Virus record (IMG/VR): IMGVR_UViG_3300025325_000023
Coordinates: 1-60,418 of that record
Origin: a virus
Strand: one strand, 5' to 3'
DNA length: 60,418 nucleotides
The notes beneath the pieces were generated by a model. That model saw only the letters and a list, made by a program, of their open reading frames with translations. It had not been told where the DNA came from and ran no database searches. This document shows, piece after piece, positions 2,463 through 56,094 of this stretch (the first letter of the stretch is position 1; the number at the start of each line of letters is the position of its first letter). Made by a program: the position numbers and the translations under genes.

Positions 2463-2825
2463 ATGTTACGACGTGATTTATTTAAGTTTCTGGCGGGCGG
2501 GGTGGTGGCGGTCGTGGTACGCACCATTCTTCCTGAGAGTTCACCCAAGGAGAGTTCGAACAGGATAAAGGTGGATTGGGAACATGGGCTTGCGGCGGAT
2601 TACAATGTTCCTATGAGTGCCTCGGATGAAGTGGTTAGGATATGGTGGGATGGCGCAGGTTTCGTAGGGCGTCCTGAGTCTGCTGTGCGAGTCCTTTCAG
2701 ACCTAGAGACCGCCAGGGACAAGGCCAGGATGGTAGTTGTCGAGGAGTTGGAAAAGTGTCTATGGGGCGATCTTCCCCAGGACGCCAAGGATGCGTGGAC
2801 AATTAAACGCTGGGGGCCGGTTTGA
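2463..2825 (+). CDS. Tat-signal exported protein, unknown function
   Basis: A 120-residue protein starting MLRRDLFKFLAGGVVA, a textbook twin-arginine signal: RR-D-L-F-K-F followed by a hydrophobic stretch to about residue 20. The ATG at 2463 is used because GAGGAGG precedes it by about 6 nt. The mature part is soluble, with a tryptophan-containing segment (VVRIWWDGAGFVG) and a charged helix; no domain is recognised. It should be exported folded. Other Tat-signal proteins and a phage TatA lie at 54-56 kb, so this may be cargo of the same system. Confidence 0.7.
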   Translation: MLRRDLFKFLAGGVVAVVVRTILPESSPKESSNRIKVDWEHGLAADYNVPMSASDEVVRIWWDGAGFVGRPESAVRVLSDLETARDKARMVVVEELEKCLWGDLPQDAKDAWTIKRWGPV

Positions 2826-3353: not shown

Positions 3354-3814
3354 AACCTGCATGTATAATTGTAATGTTAATTGTCTTGGGTGCGGCGGCC
3401 TCTGTTGGGTTTACCAAGCCCAAGTCTGCGCAAGGGGATATTTCCATTCCCTTTGAGGAGATCGGGTTGTTCGACCCATTGCCAGCAGAAGTGGCGGACG
3501 CGCCGCCAGAATTTAGGTTTAAGTGGATTCGTGCCTATAATGAAATGGCCGTACTTCAGGCCCAACGCAGGGCCGATGCGTATCGTGCGAGTAACCCCGT
3601 CCTGGAGGTGTACACCCAAGACCAAGAGTACGTGTCAGGAAGCTCGTTGAACCAACAAGCAAGTGGCGACTACAACAGCGCTCAGCTACAGGCACGGACG
3701 CAAACCACTTACCAAGGACGTAATGTGCAACGGACGTACAGGCCAGATCAGTGGGGTGGGGGTCCCGTAACAATTCTCAACCCGTATACCGAAGTGGAGG
3801 TGGAACATGAGTAA
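3350..3814 (+). CDS. secreted hypothetical protein
   Basis: A 154-residue protein with an N-terminal hydrophobic segment ([20 protein letters not shown]) that looks like a Sec signal peptide or membrane anchor. The remainder is soluble and Gln/Tyr-rich near the C-terminus. GGAGGGG precedes the ATG, which overlaps the previous stop. It directly precedes the collagen-like gene and overlaps it by 8 bp, so the two may act together at the cell surface. No family is recognised. Confidence 0.6.
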
Positions 3815-4433
3815 AAGAATGGTATTTGTACTGATCTTTGTGGGAACAATTGTGTTATACTTTGGGTTACGGTCGGCATTTGGACACGAGAACGGTGCCG
3901 ACCCGCACTCTACCCAAAATGGCAATGGCCATGCAAACCACCATGGATGGGGATTTGGGCACCACGGCGGGCTTACAGGCGGCCCGCCGAATCCTCCAGG
4001 CCCTCCGGGAGATCCTGGCCCCCCAGGCAATCCTGGTCCGCCAGGAACTCCTGGCTCTCCTGGCTCTCCTGGCTCTCCTGGCTCTCCTGGCTCTCCTGGC
4101 TCGCCGGGGGCACCGGGGGCACCGGGGGCACCGGGGGCACCGGGGGCACCGGGGGCACCGGGGGCACCGGGGGCACCGGGGGCACCGGGGGCACAAGGTA
4201 ATTCGAATGGTTCGAATTCTTCGAATAGTTCAAGTAGTTCCAGTAGCACAAGCAGTTATGTTAGTGGAGGTTGGTATGTTCAGTCTAGGTCTATGTACTG
4301 GACGATCCCGTGGTATTCACCAGTGGTTACCCCTTACCCTCTACCAACGATAGTGCCCCCTAGGGGCAAGCCTGGGGTCGATCTTCCCAACTCCTCTTTC
4401 TCTTTCTCTGGTACCGTCTACACTTTTGAATAG
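3807..4433 (+). CDS. membrane-anchored collagen-like protein
   Basis: A 208-residue protein with three parts. Residues 4-23 are a hydrophobic anchor or signal. A His/Asn-rich linker follows. Residues of about 60-132 are an uninterrupted Gly-X-Y domain, first [14 protein letters not shown], then six GSP and nine GAP triplets. A Ser/Asn-rich linker leads into a small aromatic C-terminal domain (about 155-208). Gly-X-Y domains trimerise into collagen-like rods. Phage collagen proteins are usually fibres, but the N-terminal anchor and position outside the virion module suggest a host-surface or secreted protein. The triplet tract is encoded by near-perfect 9-bp repeats, so its length may vary. 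Confidence 0.8.
4053..4187 (+). repeat. 9-bp tandem repeats in collagen gene
   Basis: Five perfect GGCTCTCCT units and one variant (4053-4106) are followed by nine perfect GGGGCACCG units (4107-4187). Because the unit is 9 bp, slippage keeps the frame and changes only rod length. Confidence 0.95.
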
Positions 4434-11622: not shown

Positions 11623-12570
11623 ATGTCAAGAGATGGTAAGCGTAGGTTTCTACTTAAGTGGGTTCGCAGCCGGTGCGAGAAGTCCAGTAATTGGGGTCGA
11701 TTCAAGATGAAATGGAAGGAATTAAACCTGGCCATGACGACCCATTATCCTAATGATGAGACCCGTAGGTGGAAAGCGTTTGCCGCCGCCACAGAATCTT
11801 TCCCCGAGACCGAACTTGCCGTCGGCCTGGCTTCTTGGAATGACCGCATCAACAATTATAAGGAGCAAGCACATGGCGACAAATTGGGGTTTGCGGCTGC
11901 TAAAATCGTGGAAAACCTTACGAACATTGATTTGTTACGCGCAACAAAAGAGGCCGAGGAGAATTCTGAAAGCATTGCACGGGAAGACAGGGAGGAGCGT
12001 CGACGACAACGAGAGCTGGATGTAGCGGAGAGACAGGCTGAGGCACGAACGAAAGAAGCGGAGGCTAAAATAGAGATAGCGAAGACGAAGACGGAAAGGA
12101 AAACGGAGATGAAGGAAGAGAAAGATCAAGACGTAGCAATAATCCCAGTTACGGTGTCCGACGATGGGCGCGTCAATATAGTTAGAGACATTGCATGGGT
12201 CTATAATCGTCTAAATGAGTTGGTAGTAACTTCGAATTTAGGTCTACGTGTCCTAAACTTAGCGGTGGTTTCCCAGGCTCCCAGTAACGGAGCGGTCACC
12301 CTGGCCAGTTACGCGCTCGCGGATGTGAAAGGGTTTTTTGAAAAATTCGTTGTAAAATTACTGCCTAGGGATGTTTCTGAATCAGAAGAGCTAGGGGGGA
12401 AGAAAGCTATGGAGGAGTCTTTGGACCCAAGCTTAAACGAACTAACTAAGTTTTTAGAACCGAAAGAAGTACCAAATCATGACGAAGGGGATGAAGGGGA
12501 TGAAGATAGAGCTGAAGACGAAGGTATGCACGAAATGCAAAAAGAGGAAGAAGAGGGGGGAATATTGTAA
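11623..12570 (+). CDS. coiled-coil protein in small-terminase position
   Basis: A 315-residue protein. A helical N-terminal region (to about 115) is followed by a long charged coiled coil (about 115-170; EAEAKIEIAKTKTERK), a globular part (about 175-250) and an acidic tail. GAGGTGG precedes the ATG. It lies two genes before the large terminase, where small terminase subunits often sit, but no DNA-binding motif is clear, so that role is only positional inference. Confidence 0.5.
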   Translation: MSRDGKRRFLLKWVRSRCEKSSNWGRFKMKWKELNLAMTTHYPNDETRRWKAFAAATESFPETELAVGLASWNDRINNYKEQAHGDKLGFAAAKIVENLTNIDLLRATKEAEENSESIAREDREERRRQRELDVAERQAEARTKEAEAKIEIAKTKTERKTEMKEEKDQDVAIIPVTVSDDGRVNIVRDIAWVYNRLNELVVTSNLGLRVLNLAVVSQAPSNGAVTLASYALADVKGFFEKFVVKLLPRDVSESEELGGKKAMEESLDPSLNELTKFLEPKEVPNHDEGDEGDEDRAEDEGMHEMQKEEEEGGIL

Positions 12571-19176: not shown

Positions 19177-20019
19177 ATGACATATCCAATCTCCAATCGT
19201 CGCACTAGTTTCGTTATCGACTATCATGCCATACGTCGCCAAGTTGGTGCGTATTTGGAGATAGGTTACTCGCATGAAGAGTGGGATGATGAACAGAATG
19301 AAACGGTTGACGACATTATACGTGATGGACTTCACCTCTACTACAATCCGCCCGTTTTGGAAGAACCCTATGCAATAGGCATGACCGAATCACATCAATG
19401 GTCCTTTTTACGACCAACATGGACTTTTAAAACTCAGGCCAACCAACGACGATACCCGTTACCGGGGGATTTTGAAAGTCCCATTGGTGACATTACCTAT
19501 CCGGATTCGTCCAGCTCTGCCTATGCTCCAATACCCTTCACCTCGGCCGCGAGATTGAGGGCATTAGAATATCAGAATGAGGCCACGACAAATCCTGAAT
19601 TAGCTGCTATAGACCCGCGAGAGTCTCAAGGAACTGGGCAACAGGAACTTGATTTGATATTGCACCCAACGCCAGATGCAGTGTACACCTTGTCTCTTCA
19701 GTATCAATCAGCCGGCCGGGCCATAGATTCGACGTCGGTATTTCCATTAGGAGGCGTGCTGCACGGGCCCGCGATCATGCAAGCCTGCCTAGCGATAGCA
19801 GAGTTTAGGAAGACGGGGGACGAAGGCCCGATGTTCAAACAATTTATGAGAATGCTCGCTGCAAATGTGATTAGAGATAGACAGAGGGGGGCCAGACTGA
19901 TTGGGTATAATGGGGATAATATGCTAGGCAATCCTATCTCTAGGGGGCAGATGCGCCGACTAGGGGGGTTGTTCTACGATACTGTCCTTTATGGAAACAC
20001 GGCTTATACGTCGGAGTAG
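19177..20019 (+). CDS. P22 gp4-like head-tail adaptor, copy 1
   Basis: A 280-residue protein with the pattern of gp4-like neck adaptors: DDIIRDGLHLYYNPPVLEE, HQWSFLRP, YPLPGDFESPIGD, LDLILHPTPDAVYTLSLQYQ and a C-terminal ALANVIRDRQRG-type helix. Such adaptors attach under the portal ring. A paralogue of 238 residues lies at 33265-33981. The following gene resembles gp10, the next piece of a P22-like neck. Confidence 0.65.
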   Translation: MTYPISNRRTSFVIDYHAIRRQVGAYLEIGYSHEEWDDEQNETVDDIIRDGLHLYYNPPVLEEPYAIGMTESHQWSFLRPTWTFKTQANQRRYPLPGDFESPIGDITYPDSSSSAYAPIPFTSAARLRALEYQNEATTNPELAAIDPRESQGTGQQELDLILHPTPDAVYTLSLQYQSAGRAIDSTSVFPLGGVLHGPAIMQACLAIAEFRKTGDEGPMFKQFMRMLAANVIRDRQRGARLIGYNGDNMLGNPISRGQMRRLGGLFYDTVLYGNTAYTSE

Positions 20020-25884: not shown

Positions 25885-26928
25885 ATGCCTATTCTTTCAG
25901 TCTCCGATTTGGGTGACTTGACGGCCGTAACCCTACGTGATTTGGGTCCCCTCAAGTTTAATCAAATCGCCCAAAGCCTTCAATATTACGAGGTGTTCTC
26001 GAAGTGGTTCAAGAAGGACAAAGTTCAATTTGAGAGCGGCCAAGGCATTCAACGGAACCTTATGCTCTCCTTTGATATCACGGCGGCCAGGCACGTTGGC
26101 TTAGGAGAGACGGATCAGGTCAATATTCCTGACGTGATCTCGTTGCTCCAAGTGCCGTGGCGTCACGCACAGACCAGTTGGGGCTTGTTCTATCAAACGG
26201 ACATTTTGATGAATCGCGGCAAGGCTCTGATTCTCAATGTCTTGAAGCCTCGCCGGGCGTCGGCTTTGCTGGCTTTAGTTGAAGAGCTAGAGAACAAGGC
26301 ATGGGCGACCGCTCCAAGCACTACAAATGAAGTCGACCCGTACAGCATTCAATACTACATTGTAGAGAACGCCACGACGGGATTCAACGGAGGTGCGCCT
26401 GGAAGCCATACTTTGGTGGCCAACATCAATCCGACTACCAACGCCAACTTTAAAAACTACACGGCTGTGTATACGAATAAGACAAAGGCCGACCTCGTGT
26501 CCAAGTTGCGCACGGCCCACCGTAGCTGCCGATTCAAGAGCCCGGTGACTGTGCAAGACTACCGAGCTGGGCTTGGAGACAAGTACCGGTTGTACTGCAA
26601 CGAAACGACCATTACCGCTTTCGAAGACCTTGGCGAAGCCCAGAACGAAAATCTCGGCCGCGACATCGCTTCTCTCGATGGCATGGTTATGTTCCGCCGT
26701 CATCCAATTATCTGGGTTCCCAAATTAGACGCGCGCACGGACGATCCGGTCTACATGATCGACCATAGCACGTTCTATCCGGCGTGTCTCAAGGGTGACT
26801 ATCTTCGTGAAAGCACGGCGGACAAGGCTCCGAACCAACATAACATGTTCGAAGTCTTCGTCGACCTCACGTATAACTATGTGTGCGACGATCGTCGTCG
26901 AAATGCTGTGTTGAGCACGAGTGTGTAA
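25885..26928 (+). CDS. major capsid protein
   Basis: A 347-residue protein downstream of the scaffold candidate, with HK97-like features: an N-terminal helix region, a central Trp/Leu-rich section (GLFYQTDILMNRGKALILN), HRSCRFKSPVTVQDYRAGLG and DGMVMFRRHPIIWVPKLDA, and a C-terminal strand (VFVDLTYNYVCDDRRRNAV). TGGAG precedes the ATG. Assigned by length, pattern and position. Confidence 0.75.
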   Translation: MPILSVSDLGDLTAVTLRDLGPLKFNQIAQSLQYYEVFSKWFKKDKVQFESGQGIQRNLMLSFDITAARHVGLGETDQVNIPDVISLLQVPWRHAQTSWGLFYQTDILMNRGKALILNVLKPRRASALLALVEELENKAWATAPSTTNEVDPYSIQYYIVENATTGFNGGAPGSHTLVANINPTTNANFKNYTAVYTNKTKADLVSKLRTAHRSCRFKSPVTVQDYRAGLGDKYRLYCNETTITAFEDLGEAQNENLGRDIASLDGMVMFRRHPIIWVPKLDARTDDPVYMIDHSTFYPACLKGDYLRESTADKAPNQHNMFEVFVDLTYNYVCDDRRRNAVLSTSV

Positions 26929-28483: not shown

Positions 28484-29662
28484 ATGGGTTCCTCAAATAT
28501 CTGGCGTCTCTTGCAAGCGGCTTGGTTGAATGGCGCGGAGCCGTTCCGTCTCTCAAGTTCGCAAAACCTAACTATTCGTCCTGTTGCTGACGACACCGGC
28601 AGTGTTAATTTCGGTGACGGGGCTACGGATATGGATGTCAAAATCTTTGTGGGCACCGCGACAGACTTTGCCCTCTTTGACGTGGGAAATGGCCAGCTCA
28701 CACTAGACAGCATGGAGCTAAACCTCGGCGATGACGATGAACTAGAGTTCGGAGATGCCACTGATGGTGATGTCAGGATTCGGTGGGATAACACGGACCT
28801 AGACATGTTAGCAGCCGCAGACGACACTGTGTTTAAGCTCGGTACGGGCACTAACAGTTTCGATGTATGGGTTTATGGAAACATTCCAACTAGTTATATA
28901 GTTTTTGACGCATCGGCGGATGAGATTCAATTACGCGGCCCCATTCGCCCGCGCGGATTCAAGAACCTTGGTCGCAGGTTCGAGCTAGGTACACAATTTG
29001 CAACAGGCGGACTCCCCCAACTAAACAGCGGGATTGACACCTCTGCCGCCACCCACGCAGTTTCTAGTAGTGAGTTTGAAATTCTTGGCGTAAACGCCGT
29101 AAATACAAGTGTTACTAGAGCCATTGGTGGGGGCATACTTCTTACGACGGCCGGGGCCGATGGTGATGAAGTAATTCTCCTTCCACACCTGGACGCGGGC
29201 GTATCTCCATGGACGACCACTACCTGGCCCACAAGCCAGGAAGTAGACTGGGAATGTCATATTGCCACAAACGCAAACGTGTCAAACCAAATAATCTGGG
29301 CCGGCCTAAAGCTTACCAATGTCGAACCCATATCTACTGACAATGACGCTGTGTGGTTCAGGTACGAAAACGACGTGGCTAGTGGATCATGGCAAGCAGC
29401 CGCGTCTATTGCCACCGTGGACACAGTTACAAACTCCTCGGCGGCGGTTGCTGTCAATACAATCTATCATTTGAAAATTGTCATAGCATCTGACCGGACT
29501 GCCCAAATGTATATTGACGGAGCCCTGATTAGAACGACGAACGCCCTAACGTCCACAAACCTAATTCCTTACATTGGAGTAGCTACGGACGGCGCAACGG
29601 CTGCAAAGTCTCTTCAAATTTTGGGTCAGTCCATCAGTCGAAATGTGGCGGTTGTTGCATAA
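28484..29662 (+). CDS. modular virion protein, family founder-like
   Basis: A 392-residue protein made of modules: an N-terminal helix (SSNIWRLLQAAWLNGAEPFR), a beta module (DMDVKIFVGTATDFALFDVG, LTLDSMELNLGDDDELEFGD, LAAADDTVFKLGTGTNSFDV), and a C-terminal concanavalin-like domain (about 210-390) with HLKIVIASDRTAQMYIDGAL. The first two modules are shared with the 29831 protein, so they likely assemble on the same virion structure. Confidence 0.6.
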   Translation: MGSSNIWRLLQAAWLNGAEPFRLSSSQNLTIRPVADDTGSVNFGDGATDMDVKIFVGTATDFALFDVGNGQLTLDSMELNLGDDDELEFGDATDGDVRIRWDNTDLDMLAAADDTVFKLGTGTNSFDVWVYGNIPTSYIVFDASADEIQLRGPIRPRGFKNLGRRFELGTQFATGGLPQLNSGIDTSAATHAVSSSEFEILGVNAVNTSVTRAIGGGILLTTAGADGDEVILLPHLDAGVSPWTTTTWPTSQEVDWECHIATNANVSNQIIWAGLKLTNVEPISTDNDAVWFRYENDVASGSWQAAASIATVDTVTNSSAAVAVNTIYHLKIVIASDRTAQMYIDGALIRTTNALTSTNLIPYIGVATDGATAAKSLQILGQSISRNVAVVA

Positions 29663-29675
29663 TTAAGGTATAGGC

Positions 29676-29771
29676 ATGAGTTCACAGAACGTACTCCGAC
29701 AACTACAGCAAGCCATAGAAACTGGGAGCTTTGGGCAACCACTAAGTCGAGTCGTGCCTGTAGTTACATAA
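29676..29771 (+). CDS. 31-residue peptide, copy of N-terminal module
   Basis: ATG 29676 gives MSSQNVLRQLQQAIETGSFG, clearly akin to the N-termini of the neighbours (SDRNVLRRLQNALTRGEAF and SSNIWRLLQAAWLNGAEPF). It stops after 31 residues. Either a remnant of a duplicated virion gene or a small functional copy of the attachment helix. Confidence 0.45.
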   Translation: MSSQNVLRQLQQAIETGSFGQPLSRVVPVVT

Positions 29772-29830
29772 TGAGAGAGCCAAAGTTATTGATACTATGG
29801 CGATCGCAACTTAGCCCAATGCTAAAATAT

Positions 29831-30631
29831 ATGAGTGACAGAAATGTGTTGCGGCGGTTACAGAATGCTTTAACACGAGGGGAGGCATTTTCTATCACCT
29901 CCGCACAGGCCCTAGTCATTAAACCTACATCGGACGATACCGGAGCGGTTCATTTTGGGACAGGTACGGAGGACCTGGATGTCAAAATCTTTGTTGGGGC
30001 AAATACAGACTTCGCCCTCTTTGACGTAGGCAATGGTCAACTGACCTTGGACTCGATGGAGCTCCAGATGGGAGACGCCGATAAGATAGAGTTCGGCGAT
30101 GGAGTTGACCTAACCATGGCCTGGGACGGCACAGACTTTGATGTATTAGCGGCCGCTGATGATTCGGTCATAAAATTTGGAAACGGCACAAACAGTTTTG
30201 ATATTTGGCTATTTGGGCAAGCTTCTGGGGAATATTTATTGTGGGATGCCTCCGACAATAAGTTAATTTCCACTGGAAACGCTTTTGTAGCCAAAAAGGT
30301 AACAGCATTAACGTCCAATACCGTATTAAGCACGGCGCAAATGGGAGGCATTATTACCAACCGAGGAACTAGTGGAGCACTTAACCACACCCTCCCGGCA
30401 ATCACTTCTCCATATTTAGGAGCATGGTTCCAATATTTTGGAGTAGCCGATCAAACTCAAACCTTCACGGCCGACCCAGCAGACACTTTGATAGCATTCA
30501 ATGATGCGACAGCTGACTCGATCGCATTCTCTACGGCAGGGGAAAAGATTGGGGCGCACGCCACCTTTGTATGTGATGGGACGAGTTGGATTGTAGCTGA
30601 CGTAAAGGGTGCGGCCACCGTGGCCACGTAA
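29831..30631 (+). CDS. modular virion protein, paralogue
   Basis: A 266-residue protein sharing the N-terminal helix and beta module (DLDVKIFVGANTDFALFDVG, LTLDSMELQMGDADKIEFGD) with the 28484 gene. It has a C-terminal module (VLSTAQMGGIITNRGTSGAL, FVCDGTSW, AATVAT) shared with the 32122 and 32703 genes. It is thus a hybrid of both types. The frame is open from an ATG at 29771, but homology to neighbours puts the start at 29831. Confidence 0.6.
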   Translation: MSDRNVLRRLQNALTRGEAFSITSAQALVIKPTSDDTGAVHFGTGTEDLDVKIFVGANTDFALFDVGNGQLTLDSMELQMGDADKIEFGDGVDLTMAWDGTDFDVLAAADDSVIKFGNGTNSFDIWLFGQASGEYLLWDASDNKLISTGNAFVAKKVTALTSNTVLSTAQMGGIITNRGTSGALNHTLPAITSPYLGAWFQYFGVADQTQTFTADPADTLIAFNDATADSIAFSTAGEKIGAHATFVCDGTSWIVADVKGAATVAT

Positions 30632-30641
30632 TAGGAATCAT

Positions 30642-31058
30642 ATGGACATACGACCACTAGAGGGCAACCACGAAGCTCAGCTCAAGACAGCCCTGAGACT
30701 TCAAGATCACGAGCCGCTTCCTCCAGAGATCGTCGAACGGTACTGGGAATTGTCCAGGACATTCCGGCGGCTAGGAGAGGTAATTCGTGGTCCAGACTTG
30801 GCGTGGCTAGTCGTACTGGCGGGCCGCCCGATCCCAAAACCCCCAACCACCATCCTAAACTCAATCAAAAACGGACAACTCGCAAAGGGTGACCGGGTAC
30901 TAGGACTGTGGAGAGACGAATGGAAGTTCGGAAGATATATCAAGCAGCGCGGGAAGAAAGTGGTTGTAATACTCGACGAGGGTCCACCTGAAGAGCGAGA
31001 ATTATCAGCACTAGAGGTGAGAATACCAGACATAAATGAGCTTGCCGTTGTAAGCTAA
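30642..31058 (+). CDS. hypothetical protein, end of virion operon
   Basis: A 138-residue basic protein. The N-terminal half is helical (HEPLPPEIVERYWELSRTFR); the C-terminal half has a beta-barrel-like pattern (GDRVLGLWRDEWKFGRYIKQ, VVVILDEGPPEERELS), resembling a small SH3-like or Tudor-like fold. TAGGA precedes the ATG. A strong terminator follows 22 bp after the stop. Role unknown. Confidence 0.55.
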   Translation: MDIRPLEGNHEAQLKTALRLQDHEPLPPEIVERYWELSRTFRRLGEVIRGPDLAWLVVLAGRPIPKPPTTILNSIKNGQLAKGDRVLGLWRDEWKFGRYIKQRGKKVVVILDEGPPEERELSALEVRIPDINELAVVS

Positions 31059-31079
31059 TAGTTTACAACGTGGTTATAT

Positions 31080-31112
31080 AAGGCTTCGGGCGCATGTGGC
31101 CGAAGCCTTTTT
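31080..31112 (+). terminator. rho-independent terminator
   Basis: AAGGCTTCGG and CCGAAGCCTT form a perfect 10-bp stem with a 10-nt loop, followed by TTT after the stem's own TT. It separates the 30642 gene from the HNH insertion. Confidence 0.9.
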
Positions 31113-31124
31113 CATAGGCGTAAA

Positions 31125-31718
31125 ATGAATACATCAGTATACATAGATGAAGTAGGGAAAAAATACGGACAATTGCTGGTTACCGCACGACATAAAAATA
31201 AAGATAGTGGAAGTGCTACTTGTCTATGTTTATGTGATTGTGGTATCATTGTACCCGTAGCTGGTTACGCCTTACGATATGGCCATATTAAAAGTTGTGG
31301 CTGCTTAAGAAAAAATGGAAATTTGGGGGCACCTAGAAAAGGATTAGGAGAAGCGTCAAAAAACACTACCTACAGGAATATGCAACGTAAGGCCAAACAT
31401 AAAAAAAGAACCTGGGCTATAGATTTTGACCAATTTTGCACTTTTACACAACTACCGTGTTATTACTGTGGATCGTCTCCAGAAAATATAACACGTAATT
31501 TTAGAGGAACGGGAGATTACATATATAATGGATTAGATAGAGTTAATAACGCAGAGGGTTATACTCTAGAAAACATAGTTCCTTGTTGTAAAAAATGCAA
31601 CTTTGCCAAACGTACCATGGATGTCCTCGAATTCAAAACCTGGATAAAAACAGCTCACGACCACCTATTTAAACTCCAGGTTAGTCATACAAGATTTGCA
31701 GGTGTACCATTGCAGTAA
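31125..31718 (+). CDS. HNH homing-type endonuclease
   Basis: A 197-residue protein with an N-terminal zinc module (CLCLCDCG, GHIKSCGCLRK) typical of free-standing phage HNH genes, and a C-terminal HNH core (CYYCGSS, NGLDRVNNAEGYTLENIVPC, CKKCNFAKRTM). It is markedly AT-rich with A/T-ending codons, unlike neighbours, and sits between a terminator and a virion gene: signs of lateral insertion. It probably nicks or cuts DNA and spreads by homing. Confidence 0.8.
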   Translation: MNTSVYIDEVGKKYGQLLVTARHKNKDSGSATCLCLCDCGIIVPVAGYALRYGHIKSCGCLRKNGNLGAPRKGLGEASKNTTYRNMQRKAKHKKRTWAIDFDQFCTFTQLPCYYCGSSPENITRNFRGTGDYIYNGLDRVNNAEGYTLENIVPCCKKCNFAKRTMDVLEFKTWIKTAHDHLFKLQVSHTRFAGVPLQ

Positions 31719-31741
31719 CCATTCAACATTATTCTAGAGCC

Positions 31742-32119
31742 GTGGTCAGAGTCGACGGCGTGACCTATCAGGTGGGGAGTCTGGAGACTCCGATATCCGT
31801 GACGGCGACTAACGAGATAGTCTATCAGCGCGTGTTCTCCATCTCCAATAGTGCCAACGCAACCGTTTACGATGATACTTTAGGGAATTTCGACTACCTT
31901 TGGGTAGCTTCCGATTTCAATACCCGATTGCTTTGCACGAATGTTAATAGCGTCGCATTAAATTTTCAGTTACTTGGTACTGGCACATCAGGTAGTTACG
32001 GGGTTCCCTTCGTTTTGGGGCTCGATCTCAGCACCAATTCGTCGGTCACAATTAACACGTTGCAGGTCTTCAACGACAGCGGTAGCACGGCGAACATCTT
32101 GGTCTTAGCATTGGATTAG
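31742..32119 (+). CDS. small beta-rich virion protein
   Basis: A 125-residue Thr/Ser/Asn-rich beta protein (ISVTATNEIVYQRVFSISNS). The GTG at 31742 is the first standard start. The frame is open back to an ATT at 31709 with AGGTG just upstream; the extra residues AVTIQHYSRA look natural and would overlap the HNH end. The true start may have been altered by the HNH insertion. Confidence 0.5.
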   Translation: MVRVDGVTYQVGSLETPISVTATNEIVYQRVFSISNSANATVYDDTLGNFDYLWVASDFNTRLLCTNVNSVALNFQLLGTGTSGSYGVPFVLGLDLSTNSSVTINTLQVFNDSGSTANILVLALD

Positions 32120-32121
32120 TT

Positions 32122-32679
32122 ATGGTCTTTGCTACAATTCCATCAGGCGCTACGACTCGAATTCAATACAATACGGCAGATATAAACGTATTGCCCGATG
32201 TAGACGATACTGGTACAGTCAGCATAGGTAACGGAATTGCCGATATAGACTTCAAAATTTACTTAGGGACTACCGCCGATTTCGTGTTGTTTGATGTAGG
32301 TAACACAAAAGTGACTCCTTCGGGGGCGTCTTTCTTAGCGGCAAAGGTTTCCGCTTTGACTACAAATACTACCCTGAGTGCTACACATTTTGGTGGAATA
32401 ATCACAAATCGAGGAGCCGCAGGGGCCTTGAATCACACTCTTCCTACGGCTACCGCGGCGCTAAGCGGTGCGTGGTTTGAATACTGGGGGTTTGCTAATC
32501 AAAACCAAACCTTCACAGCAGGGCCAGCAGACTCGTTAGTGATACTGAACGACTCCGCTTCCGATTCAGTTTCGTTCTCCTCGAATAACCAGAAAATTGG
32601 TGCGAGTGCCAAGTTTGTCTGTGATGGTACTAATTGGTATGTAGCTATCCTTCAAGGAAATGGTACGACAACTACTTAA
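32122..32679 (+). CDS. modular virion protein, C-terminal type
   Basis: A 185-residue protein. After a short N-terminal part with DDTGTVSIGNGIADIDFKIY (a version of the beta module), it has the C-terminal module ATHFGGIITNRGAAGAL, SDSVSFSSNNQKIGA and FVCDGTNWY. It is about 60% similar by eye to the following gene and related to the 29831 C-terminus. Confidence 0.6.
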   Translation: MVFATIPSGATTRIQYNTADINVLPDVDDTGTVSIGNGIADIDFKIYLGTTADFVLFDVGNTKVTPSGASFLAAKVSALTTNTTLSATHFGGIITNRGAAGALNHTLPTATAALSGAWFEYWGFANQNQTFTAGPADSLVILNDSASDSVSFSSNNQKIGASAKFVCDGTNWYVAILQGNGTTTT

Positions 32680-32702
32680 TACAATTTTCACGGATTTCAT
32701 AT

Positions 32703-33260
32703 ATGCCATACCTTACCGGCGCTAGTGTTGGAAATGTGGGCTTTTTTTTCGATGGAGATAATGTAAACATACTGCCCACAACAGATGATGCGGGGACAAT
32801 AAGCATTGGGGACGGCGCTCTAGATATAGACTTAAAAGTCTTCATGGGAACCACAGCAGATTACACACTAGTTGATATCAGCGCAGCTACCATAACCCTG
32901 GTGGGCGCGGTAACCGCGCCCCATAAGGTAAATGCTCTAACCACCAATACAGTATTGTCCAACACACACTTTAACGGGGTAATCACCAACCGTGGAGCTG
33001 CTGGAGCCCTTAACCACACAATTCCAAACGCCAATGCCGCCTTAGCAGGTATGTGGTTTGAATACAGGGGTGTGGCGGATCAGAATCAAACTTTTACTGC
33101 CGCCACTGCCGACACCCTCATAACCCTAAACGATGCAACTTCAGATTCAATTGCCTGGTCTACTGCGTTAAGCCGGATAGGGTCCCACGGGGTCTTCTTT
33201 TGTGATGGAACAAATTGGTTCGCAACCTCTCTGTCTGGCGTAGCCACCATAGCGACATAG
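32703..33260 (+). CDS. modular virion protein, tandem paralogue
   Basis: A 185-residue protein, the same length as its upstream neighbour and closely similar: DDAGTISIGDGALDIDLKVF, NTHFNGVITNRGAAGALNHT, SDSIAWSTALSRIGS and FFCDGTNWF. Tandem duplication with divergence is the simplest explanation. The ribosome site at ATG 32703 is poor; the frame is open from an ATG at 32634, but that would overlap the previous gene. Confidence 0.6.
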   Translation: MPYLTGASVGNVGFFFDGDNVNILPTTDDAGTISIGDGALDIDLKVFMGTTADYTLVDISAATITLVGAVTAPHKVNALTTNTVLSNTHFNGVITNRGAAGALNHTIPNANAALAGMWFEYRGVADQNQTFTAATADTLITLNDATSDSIAWSTALSRIGSHGVFFCDGTNWFATSLSGVATIAT

Positions 33261-33264
33261 CACC

Positions 33265-33981
33265 ATGGCCGAATCCTCAATCTCCGTAGCATTCGCAGAC
33301 ATTCAAAGCGAGATCGCACATTACTTAGGGTGGGATAGAACGGCTTCCAGCTGGACCACCAATAACAATACCGACTTTGCCTTGCTCATAGAACGCGGAT
33401 TACGAATGTTCTACTTTCCGGTAATCTCCGAGGAGCAACCCGTATACGAGTGGTCGTTCCTTCAGATTGAAGGCACCATTACGTTGGCCACATCTGACGT
33501 AGATTACGACTTGCCTGACGATTGTAGCGGTACGGTCCTTGACAATAGTGTTACCCATGCGGTCGGGTCCACCCGCCGGCCGCTTTTGAAAATCTCCGAG
33601 GCAGCGTGGCGGAAGGTGCGATCTATGGATGATCTAACGGGGACGACCAAGTATTACGCGGTGCGCAATAAGGCGCAAGCAGCAAATACGGGACAGCGCT
33701 TTGAGCTCCTGATCTACCCAACGCCAACATCCACCCAAAATACCCAAGTGATAACTTACCGGTACGTCACAATTCCAAATGTCATTTCCGCAACTAATAT
33801 CTATCCGGCCGGCGGTGGACGGCACTCAGAGACTATCCTGGCGGCAATGCTCGCGGCGGCAGAAGAAAAACAGGATGATGATCCGAACGGACCATACAAG
33901 CAGAAATTCAAAGAGTTACTGATGAGCTCAATCCGATCGGATATGCAACTTAAGGATAACAACAGGGGAGGCGAAACTTAA
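33265..33981 (+). CDS. P22 gp4-like head-tail adaptor, copy 2
   Basis: A 238-residue paralogue of the 19177-20019 protein: FALLIERGLRMFYFPVISEE, YEWSFLQIEG, DYDLPDDCSG, ELLIYPTPTSTQNTQVITYR and a C-terminal helix SSIRSDMQLKDNNRG align throughout. One may be the true adaptor and the other a neck or tail-tube component. Its stop overlaps the next start by one base. Confidence 0.6.
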   Translation: MAESSISVAFADIQSEIAHYLGWDRTASSWTTNNNTDFALLIERGLRMFYFPVISEEQPVYEWSFLQIEGTITLATSDVDYDLPDDCSGTVLDNSVTHAVGSTRRPLLKISEAAWRKVRSMDDLTGTTKYYAVRNKAQAANTGQRFELLIYPTPTSTQNTQVITYRYVTIPNVISATNIYPAGGGRHSETILAAMLAAAEEKQDDDPNGPYKQKFKELLMSSIRSDMQLKDNNRGGET

Positions 33982-54011: not shown

Positions 54012-54077
54012 ATGAAACGTCGTAGATTTCTTACATCATGTTTCCTAAGTACAACATTGGGGGGGGGTGGCCCGTAA
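54012..54077 (+). CDS. 21-residue Tat-signal-like peptide, broken at G9
   Basis: ATG 54012, after GGGAAGAAG, reads MKRRRFLTSCFLSTTLGGGG and stops. RRRFLTS is a good twin-arginine motif, but the coding frame ends at a nine-G run (54059-54067). It may be the remnant of a Tat-substrate gene or a slip-switched one. Confidence 0.4.
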   Translation: MKRRRFLTSCFLSTTLGGGGP

Positions 54078-54133: not shown

Positions 54134-54310
54134 ATGTTTTATTTCTTCTCTGTCTTTTTTTCTCTATTTTTGGTCATGGGGTTCACCTACGTGTTGTCGT
54201 ATTTTGTGACTTATTCGGCGACTTTGCGGGCGATTAAGGCTGATAGGGCGGAGCAAGAGCGCTTGAATGGCGGGGCTCGGATTTTTACCAGAAGGGCAAA
54301 GGGTGATTAG
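54134..54310 (+). CDS. small membrane protein, paralogue 1
   Basis: A 58-residue protein with a Phe-rich membrane segment (FYFFSVFFSLFLVMGFTYVL) and a basic C-terminus. Start at ATG 54134, 8 nt after GGAGG. Similar in layout to the next gene (YF-x2-T then LRAIKADRAEQ). Confidence 0.55.
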   Translation: MFYFFSVFFSLFLVMGFTYVLSYFVTYSATLRAIKADRAEQERLNGGARIFTRRAKGD

Positions 54311-54312
54311 TT

Positions 54313-54543
54313 ATGGAGTTTTCCATTTTTAATTTCTTTGTTATATTCGTACTTATCTCATTTATCCTTGTTTGTTTCTCCGTTTCTATGTACTTTATCA
54401 CACGTGTAGCTGTGTTAAAGTCTATTGAGGAGGATAGGGAGGGGCAAAAGAGGGAGGAAGCGGCTAAATCAAGGGAGCTATGGGCTTACGATAAACAGAT
54501 GAGGGCCCAAAAGAAGGCCGGGCTTCTGGTTAAACTAGACTAA
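54313..54543 (+). CDS. small membrane protein, paralogue 2
   Basis: A 76-residue protein with an N-terminal membrane segment (NFFVIFVLISFILVCFSVSM) then MYFITRVAVLKSIEEDREGQ, alignable with its neighbour. Charged cytoplasmic-type tail. Possibly interacts with the membrane TatA downstream; that is inference from place only. Confidence 0.5.
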   Translation: MEFSIFNFFVIFVLISFILVCFSVSMYFITRVAVLKSIEEDREGQKREEAAKSRELWAYDKQMRAQKKAGLLVKLD

Positions 54544-54544
54544 T

Positions 54545-54573
54545 GTGTACTGATTATGAGTATTTTAGTACAC
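54545..54573. promoter_or_regulatory. inverted repeat, possible operator
   Basis: GTGTACT (54545-54551) and AGTACAC (54567-54573) are perfect complements across 15 bp. There is no T-run, so this is more like an operator than a terminator. Confidence 0.4.
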
Positions 54574-54608
54574 AATTAGTATGACCTGTACTTGCGTCCT
54601 GGTGTAAT

Positions 54609-54845
54609 ATGGTAACATGTCAGCGCCCTTTGCTGAAGATCTCGGACCCAACCCGGGGGACGCTCCTTGATGATAAGTATATAGGGTGGGGGCAATCCGG
54701 TGGCGTTGACATTGTAGAGCTAGGGCCCGGCGACCCGGTTCCGGCGTTCCTTTTTGAACCACAGGGGGTGCTGTACCCGGCTGTTCTTATCCCCCATGAA
54801 GATGGGTTTCCCATACCTGAGGTTTACAATACTCACGTGTTTTGA
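54609..54845 (+). CDS. hypothetical protein
   Basis: A 78-residue protein, Gly/Pro-rich (VDIVELGPGDPVPAFLFEPQ), with a poor ribosome site. Coding is plausible from its position and length only. Confidence 0.4.
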   Translation: MVTCQRPLLKISDPTRGTLLDDKYIGWGQSGGVDIVELGPGDPVPAFLFEPQGVLYPAVLIPHEDGFPIPEVYNTHVF

Positions 54846-54858
54846 AAGGCAGGTTCCC

Positions 54859-55098
54859 ATGGTTTTAATTCCTGATTTTGTGTTGGCCTCAATGATTCTA
54901 GTTGGATTTTGCATAGGGATAGGGTCGGGTTTAACTTGGCTTGAGAAGAAGTTTCCCCCATTTCCGTTGCACAGTCCCTTTTGGTTGAACAAAATCCATG
55001 ATGTTTGTTGGTTCCTGTTCTCTAGGTTCGTATTCGGGCTCGGGCTAGTATCTCTAGTTAGTGTGGTCATCCTTACTCTTTATGGTCAAGGAATCTAG
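54859..55098 (+). CDS. two-pass membrane protein
   Basis: A 79-residue protein with hydrophobic segments (about 5-24 and 52-76). The ATG at 54859 follows AGG. It is the gene immediately before tatA, so a membrane partner of the export system is possible, though it does not resemble TatC (six helices) or TatB. Confidence 0.5.
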   Translation: MVLIPDFVLASMILVGFCIGIGSGLTWLEKKFPPFPLHSPFWLNKIHDVCWFLFSRFVFGLGLVSLVSVVILTLYGQGI

Positions 55099-55107
55099 GG
55101 GTGTATT

Positions 55108-55293
55108 ATGTTCGGCATAGGTCCTATGGAGATTTGTATTGTTGGAGTTGTGGCCGTGCTCCTGTTTGGGAGCAAGTTGCCCGGCCTGGCTCGGTCCCTT
55201 GGGGCGGCTATACCAGCATTCAAGGCTGGTTTGAGCGAGCTTGATAGGGAAACCAAAGAAGTAGAACGTGAAATACGAAAGGTGGTGCAGTGA
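55108..55293 (+). CDS. tatA: TatA/E-family twin-arginine translocase subunit
   Basis: A 61-residue protein with the TatA hallmark: short N-terminal membrane helix (about 4-20), hinge FGSKLPGLARSLG, and an amphipathic helix (AIPAFKAGLSELDRETKEVE). Chromosomal TatA and TatE multimerise to form the pore that exports folded proteins with twin-arginine signals; TatC supplies recognition and is not seen here, so the host TatC must be used. Two Tat-signal genes follow with 0-1 bp spacing, so they form one transcription unit with it. The phage encodes little else of the machinery. Confidence 0.88.
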   Translation: MFGIGPMEICIVGVVAVLLFGSKLPGLARSLGAAIPAFKAGLSELDRETKEVEREIRKVVQ

Positions 55294-55724
55294 TGCCTGA
55301 TCGCAGAGGGTTTATAGGAGCCTGTTTCGCAGGTCTTGCTGGGGTATCCGTTGCTGCTACGGTGGGGCCAGTGTTGGAGGTAACCAGGAAATTGGTTTTT
55401 CCAAAGAGTCTTGAGGAGCTAGACAGGGATGGGCCGATTTGTGTGACCTCCATGGCGGGCGCACAACGGTTCCCCGAGTTTATAAGTATTTTGGACTCGT
55501 CATCCCGCCCGGATGTGTGGTTTGGGGTAACCCATAGGCAGATTACTGCGATGGGAAAAGAGAAGTACGCGGCCTTTGTTAAGGCGCATTTGCAGATAAA
55601 TCACGATTTTGGGTATAAACGGATGCATGGCGTAGCAAATACTTTTGACTTGTCCCATGGTGGTCCGTTTGGGGTTCGTCACGTTGATGGCTTTAGTGAT
55701 TTACAGGAGGGTGGGTATGTCTAG
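55293..55724 (+). CDS. Tat-signal exported protein A
   Basis: A 143-residue protein starting MPDRRGFIGACFAGLAGVSV, with twin arginines followed by F-I-G and a hydrophobic segment: a clear Tat signal. The mature part has VWFGVTHRQITAMG and HGVANTFDLSHGGPFG. It may bind a cofactor, which would explain Tat use, but no cofactor motif is certain. Its start overlaps the TatA stop, which strongly couples the two. Confidence 0.75.
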   Translation: MPDRRGFIGACFAGLAGVSVAATVGPVLEVTRKLVFPKSLEELDRDGPICVTSMAGAQRFPEFISILDSSSRPDVWFGVTHRQITAMGKEKYAAFVKAHLQINHDFGYKRMHGVANTFDLSHGGPFGVRHVDGFSDLQEGGYV

Positions 55725-56094
55725 TCGTCGTGGTTTTATCGGTCGGTGCCTAGCCGGCCTGGTTGGTGTTGGTGCGTTGACTACCGGGGCCGTTGTCAAG
55801 GCGGTATCGCCAGAAGAGATGGATTCTACCAATGTTGCGAAGGATTACGACCTAGACGAAGTGATAGCGTGGGTGAGACGTGCGCAGCAGCATATAAAAT
55901 TTATTCCTCCAATCGCTCCTCCTCCTCCACCTCCGTCGTCACCGACGACTATCTGGCCTGGGGACGAGCAGCCTGGTTGTTTTTTAGTTTACGATGCAGA
56001 TAATAGGTATGAGTACACGTTTGCACCACAGATGGAGCTTGGTACTAAGAAAGATGGGCGCATTGTGTTTAATGCTGGGGGGTGGGTAGCATGA
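55717..56094 (+). CDS. Tat-signal exported protein B
   Basis: A 125-residue protein starting MSSRRGFIGRCLAGLVGVGA, sharing RRGFIG with protein A. A Pro-rich linker (PPIAPPPPPPSSPTT) joins it to a C-terminal Tyr/Phe domain. It overlaps protein A by 8 bp and is preceded by GGAGGG. It is probably a folded or cofactor-bearing periplasmic or outer protein. Confidence 0.75.
   Translation: MSSRRGFIGRCLAGLVGVGALTTGAVVKAVSPEEMDSTNVAKDYDLDEVIAWVRRAQQHIKFIPPIAPPPPPPSSPTTIWPGDEQPGCFLVYDADNRYEYTFAPQMELGTKKDGRIVFNAGGWVA

Follow-up and report, generated by a model that had tools for sequence, protein, structure and literature searches.

The viral DNA analysed here, the complete IMG/VR virus record IMGVR_UViG_3300025325_000023 (60,418 bases, hereafter referred to as the window), encodes a divergent TatA, a subunit of the twin-arginine translocation (Tat) system, and two proteins with Tat signals whose genes follow tatA without a gap. 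With a probability of roughly 60%, we infer that this phage TatA boosts the Tat translocase of the host, by which folded proteins made by the phage would be exported. The genes in question, at the end of the segment 54134-56094, are the following (aa, amino acids):

55108..55293, + strand: tatA, 61-aa TatA with an N-terminal transmembrane helix, the hinge FGSKLP, the amphipathic helix FKAGLSEL and a charged tail
55293..55724, + strand: Tat-signal protein 1, MPDRRGFIGACFAGLAGVSVAA..., 143 aa, TIGR01409 score 16.9 bits against a cut-off of 16.7
55717..56094, + strand: Tat-signal protein 2, MSSRRGFIGRCLAGLVGVGAL..., 125 aa, TIGR01409 score 14.8 bits, 17.5 at the DNA level

A preliminary description of the sequence had recognised the 61-residue protein as TatA by its hinge and amphipathic helix, and profile searches agreed with this in the main. 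The protein scored 49.5 bits with PF02416 (TatA_B_E), for which the gathering cut-off is 21 bits, and 48.5 bits in a DNA-level search with the same family. The match to NCBIfam TIGR01411 (tatAE) spans the whole model (E 8e-14), although its 51.0 bits narrowly miss the cut-off of 53.9. In an alignment of 16 viral TatAs, the residues E8, F20, G21, L24, P25, G32 and K39 are invariant, F38 is nearly invariant and L19 is likewise conserved; the window protein has the transmembrane helix, the FG..LP hinge and the amphipathic helix with the conserved residues. Given the Pfam score, these residues and the near miss with TIGR01411, we regard the product of 55108-55293 as a divergent TatA, with a predicted role in export together with TatC. 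Assignment as TatB was rejected, since TIGR01410 gave only 25.5 bits against a cut-off of 56.5. Additionally, PHROG 29532, a family of unknown function, matched the window TatA weakly (25.5 bits), and similar phage proteins may therefore sit unnamed in reference sets.

The TGA stop codon of tatA (55291-55293) shares one base with the ATG of the next gene at 55293 (TGATG, 55291-55295), and the stop codon of the latter (55722-55724) lies beyond the ATG at 55717, so that the two Tat-signal genes overlap by 8 bases. Because of these overlaps, which bear out the gapless order described earlier, joint translation of tatA and the two downstream genes is almost certain. Both coupled proteins start with M-(PD/SS)-RRGFIG followed by a hydrophobic stretch, and their signal regions are ~45% identical. 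With the Tat-signal profile TIGR01409, protein 1 lies just over the cut-off, and protein 2 lies under it at the protein level but over it at the DNA level. The mature part of protein 1 gave no Pfam or PHROG match, a search for close viral relatives of this protein found none, and its AlphaFold model from the single sequence was uninformative (predicted local distance difference test, pLDDT, 38). Both proteins are without recognised relatives.

The combination of TatA and Tat signals was also found in other phages. A degenerate TatA hinge pattern was scanned against all IMG/VR contigs, and each of the 18 contigs returned contained a TatA-like open reading frame (ORF); a profile scan added one further contig (L199; labels of this kind are ours), and one phage TatA, 66% identical to that of the window over 44 residues, emerged from a protein scan. 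Besides the window, about 20 uncultured phages carry TatA. A direct BLAST of the window TatA against 50,697 phage records gave one weak match, in an unannotated 6.9-kb record, and the other viral TatA type, used as the query, gave none. In a tree based on 58 columns, the viral TatAs group together, that of the window with those of G006 and G008, which is compatible with a single origin or several. As in the window, for which the preliminary description had listed no TatC, this subunit was not found in any of the 19 TatA records searched, some of which may be incomplete contigs.

Tat signals over the TIGR01409 cut-off were present in 10/19 TatA records and in 0/50 random viral contigs, which had been drawn by a random 15-mer and of which the 50 longest were used (Fisher p = 3e-7, or 2e-6 once near-duplicates were merged). 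TatA was likewise absent from these 50 contigs. Among contigs of the window's capsid family that lack TatA, 1/14 had a Tat signal, a marginal one (16.9 bits), compared with 11/20 TatA records when that of L199 was included (p = 0.009); the absences in control contigs are soft, because contigs are often fragments. Moreover, Tat-signal genes also adjoin tatA elsewhere: in nine other genomes (G003, G005, G007, G009, G012, G014, G015, G016 and G017), one is found immediately upstream of it, with a gap of -34 to +84 nt. The combined tests of the nearest distance between Tat-signal genes and tatA within genomes gave p = 0.001, with kinship among the genomes ignored. Several RR matches (G001_41815, G006_136261 and G017_49242) were dropped, being judged by eye to be Sec or lipoprotein signals.

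The mature parts of the Tat-signal proteins mostly belong to no recognisable family. Papain-like proteins with a Tat tag are encoded by G019 and by the record of L199, and members of this family without the tag occur in other TatA phages. A 519-aa papain-like protein with a Tat signal was seen in L251 (IMGVR_UViG_3300005096_000097, match near 12027-12098), where the region of the presumed active-site Cys (IGDC...VSHGWG) has an apparent intein-like (Hint) insertion. In the 511-kb record IMGVR_UViG_3300046517_002304 (L099-L100), TatA is accompanied by three Tat-signal proteins that consist of MORN-like repeats (WYQHGxxHRxGGPA).

In order to characterize the cargo, 40 Tat-signal proteins were each compared with the other proteins of their own phage. 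Ten of them had a match at E < 1e-3, and for 7/40 the matched protein was a virion protein of the same phage; reversed proteins gave no match (0/40). The remaining three are paralogous repeat proteins of the jumbo phage G010; their likeness to one another reflects a shared repeat rather than virion mimicry, and they were left out. In three phages, the cargo contain stretches of 21-52 aa that are 50-70% identical to virion proteins of the same phage, in most cases the major capsid protein. An 81-aa cargo protein of G001 ends with 27 aa that are 59% identical to the N-terminus of the phage's major head protein (phrog_283). Three cargo of G006 hold segments of its head protein (phrog_2522); in the clearest, identity reaches 70% across 37 aa. 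One of these three additionally contains a 52-aa stretch of a further large protein, probably of the virion. G008 has three such cargo: a 65-aa protein in which the Tat signal precedes a capsid segment (68% identity across 37 aa), another with 21 aa of capsid sequence, and a Tat-tagged protein related to the product of the gene adjacent to that of the capsid, for which a match to Phage_cement was weak and below threshold. In a fourth phage, G017, one cargo exceeded the Pfam Phage_capsid cut-off of 24.2 with 30 bits, and a portal match was weak. G006 also encodes, at 87421-87936 (within L059), a partial and diverged copy of its major head protein, 171 aa in length and lacking a Tat signal.

The capsid protein, which makes up 0.6-1.1% of coding capacity, is the source of 6/9 segments, a post hoc count that favours conserved, recognisable parents. 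The segments are closer to the capsid protein of their own phage than to that of a relative, and three unrelated capsid types have given rise to them. Both observations argue for selection acting on the virion-derived cargo rather than one accidental fusion.

A similar case may exist in the window, where a third protein with a Tat-like signal is encoded at 2463 and can be compared with the putative capsid protein:

2463..2825, + strand: Tat-signal-like protein 3, MLRRDLFKFLAGGVVAVVV..., 120 aa, recognised by its sequence motif
25885..26928, + strand: putative major capsid protein, after a scaffold-like gene (24771) and the portal/terminase region

Protein 3 begins with MLRRDLFKF, which includes the textbook motif RRDLFKF, and continues with a hydrophobic stretch; the motif named in the preliminary description is therefore present, but the TIGR01409 profile gives no match. 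The protein encoded at 25885 is regarded as a putative major capsid protein on the grounds of gene order and of a related prophage in Planctomycetota, in which its relative adjoins terminase and portal homologues. Its relatives in 14 viral contigs are 49-72% identical. It had no PHROG match that would identify it as a head protein, and a single-sequence AlphaFold model was uninformative (pLDDT 33). Residues 77-117 of protein 3 (nucleotides 2691-2813) resemble residues 116-158 of the capsid protein (nucleotides 26230-26358), over ~43 residues. The capsid protein is the best match of protein 3 in the phage's own proteome (z = 5.2, E = 0.019), and when a capsid profile was run on 9145 ORFs, protein 3 was the top non-capsid match (E = 0.54; E = 0.037 within the window). 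These values are only suggestive of a segment akin to the phage's own capsid in protein 3, with 25885 as its possible parent. A likeness of protein 1 to the C-terminus of the capsid protein was lost under shuffling. Another assembly, either of this phage or of one nearly identical to it (L021, IMGVR_UViG_3300025313_000073), agrees fully with the window in its terminase and capsid proteins and in gene 2463; it spans 35.7 kb, and tatA lies outside that stretch.

Among 392 genomes searched, one Planctomycetota chromosome contained a homologue of the putative capsid protein. The ~60 kb around it hold terminase, portal, capsid and further homologues in common with the window and colinear with it, and we take this region as a prophage related to the window phage. 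This suggests Planctomycetota as the host phylum. Planctomycetota also supplied the nearest cellular TatAs in a direct scan (48-51% identical). Within the 60 kb of the prophage, neither a TatA nor a twin-arginine gene was noticed, and a DNA-level search of a phage collection found no relatives of the window.

Export through the host TatC, as suggested in the preliminary description, is retained as the natural reading, because the phage encodes a TatA, in one unit with Tat-signal proteins and without a TatC, and because the combination recurs. During infection, the phage TatA would join the TatC-containing receptor complex of the host, the capacity of the host translocase would be raised or specialised for the Tat-signal proteins made by the phage, and these would leave the cytoplasm folded, via the host TatC. 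The further suggestions of the preliminary description, namely retuned host export, takeover and delivery of envelope proteins, are speculative. It is important to mention that substrate binding recruits further TatA in known Tat systems (PMC13323110) and one organism can use two TatA paralogues (PMC4148689), so a TatA supplied by the phage could raise capacity.

As for the purpose of such export, the cargo derived from virion proteins, a theme with a weak counterpart in the window, point to something not proposed in the preliminary description. Our preference is counter-defence, in which the capsid-derived cargo are decoys that would remove host capsid sensors, a speculative suggestion made with low confidence. 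The Tat system moves complexes of folded proteins (hitchhiker export). The capsid-like fragments may bind host sensors of capsid, portal, cement or tail proteins, and Tat may then carry the sensor-fragment pair out of the cytoplasm or park it at the membrane. That capsid proteins and tail tubes trigger host defences is documented (PMC9712102, PMC11312562 and PMC11087589). The broader proposal, that a phage's own TatA together with Tat-tagged mimics of capsid, cement, portal or tail proteins forms a new class of counter-defence by which cytoplasmic immune sensors would be bound and then exported or parked at the membrane through the host Tat machinery, is slightly more doubtful still.

Several observations weigh against export and the decoy function. 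The Tat signals of the window are borderline by TIGR01409, protein 3 matches its own capsid weakly, and the comparison of proteins 1 and 2 with their own proteome shows no virion-like segment, as is the case for most cargo of the GC-rich group. Fragments of mostly 21-52 residues may be unable to fold or to engage a sensor. Once exported, a decoy would land where no known capsid sensor acts, and hitchhiking would therefore be needed. Additionally, some phages of the same capsid family manage without tatA or Tat signals.

A rather improbable alternative is that the cargo tether or regulate assembly of the phage's own particles: the segments would attach to the capsid protein while the Tat signal kept them at the inner membrane, where procapsid assembly would be organised or limited. 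This agrees with the origin of the segments in capsid, cement and probable tail proteins of the same phage, whose capsid they match better than a relative's, but a Tat signal places the mature part across the membrane from assembling capsids, and the capsid segments differ between cargo and do not overlap. We give an equally small chance to superinfection exclusion or interference, in which the cargo would act in the envelope or on the particles of related phages and TatA would help to deliver them. Small, fast-changing proteins directed to the membrane or periplasm are typical of exclusion functions, and a prophage protein that interferes with virion assembly is known (PMC10884400); however, capsid pieces in the periplasm would have no obvious incoming target, and lysogeny of the contigs is not established.

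Ordinary capture of host genes is less probable again. Planctomycetota use Tat heavily, the related prophage backs this phylum as host and the nearest cellular TatAs are planctomycetal, so tatA and genes for secreted proteins could have been acquired with no dedicated linkage, the virion-like segments being by-products of duplication. On the other hand, the viral TatAs group on the tree, the pair of cargo gene and tatA is conserved, 6/9 own-protein segments come from a protein with ~1% of coding capacity, and the phenomenon is found in three unrelated capsid types. The least probable alternative is a holin-like, membrane-weakening or proton-leak function instead of transport, which would suit a small one-helix protein that, like TatA in general, oligomerises and thins membranes, and the three small membrane proteins encoded just upstream, but leaves unexplained the conserved transport residues and the co-occurrence and adjacency with Tat-signal genes.

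The region upstream of tatA contains the following features:

54012..54077, + strand: remnant Tat-signal-like peptide, MKRRRFLTSCFLSTTLGGGGP, followed by a stop codon, seen in the sequence only
54134..55098, + strand: four small genes upstream of tatA (54134, 54313, 54609 and 54859), also called from sequence only

The truncated Tat-signal peptide noted earlier at 54012 does exist, but it is a remnant of 21 residues that terminates past seven consecutive G and is unlikely to be a gene; the G run, at 54055-54070 within this truncated ORF, might reflect a frameshift or an assembly slip. Three of the four small genes encode proteins resembling single-pass membrane proteins, and family searches of the four gave nothing significant. 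Elsewhere in the window, PHROG matches were obtained for DNA polymerase, terminase, sigma factor, primase and a virion structural protein, and a LamG-like protein is also encoded. The protein at 3807-4433 has collagen-like Gly-X-Y repeats (PGPPG/APG) and a membrane segment at its N-terminus. In the virion region, a gene is duplicated (related copies at 19177-20019 and 33265-33981), and at least four related proteins of one family are encoded in 28484-33260 (28484, 29771, 32122 and 32634).

Phages of Planctomycetota are little studied, and phages were not previously known, in openly searchable papers, to supply Tat subunits along with Tat-tagged cargo of their own. If the export does take place, it would be a new route for a virus to reshape the host envelope, and the capsid-fragment cargo would be a concrete, testable link of protein export to capsid-sensing immunity, probably in Planctomycetota. 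To our knowledge, no counter-defence employs capsid fragments with a Tat tag, and as far as we could find, cargo assembled from parts of a phage's own capsid proteins have not been described earlier; this novelty is provisional, because the literature search covered open-access papers. No paper on a phage TatA was found in the openly searchable literature, where only TatC appeared, in the legend of one paper, as an annotation in circular marine phages (PMC10564846).

The window TatA resembles cellular TatA/TatE (PF02416, TIGR01411) in length, transmembrane helix, FGxKLP hinge, amphipathic helix and invariant residues, but it is carried by a phage without TatB or TatC and is coupled to phage Tat-signal genes. 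Compared with TatAs of the FGxxKLP type, the hinge of the phage protein is shorter by one residue and the tail is very short. PHROG 29532 is weakly similar and carries no TatA annotation. The marine-phage TatC is likewise a Tat component in a viral genome, but it is TatC rather than TatA, rests on automatic annotation only and has no cargo described in that legend. As with TatA1/TatA2 of Campylobacter jejuni (PMC4148689), an extra TatA would stand beside the resident translocase, whereas here the second TatA would be supplied by a virus during infection. Finally, as CapRel (PMC9712102), a TIR system (PMC11312562) and DSR2/DSAD1 (PMC11087589) indicate, virion proteins are common triggers worth masking, and we infer the link between such capsid-sensing defences and counter-defences and the system of the window.
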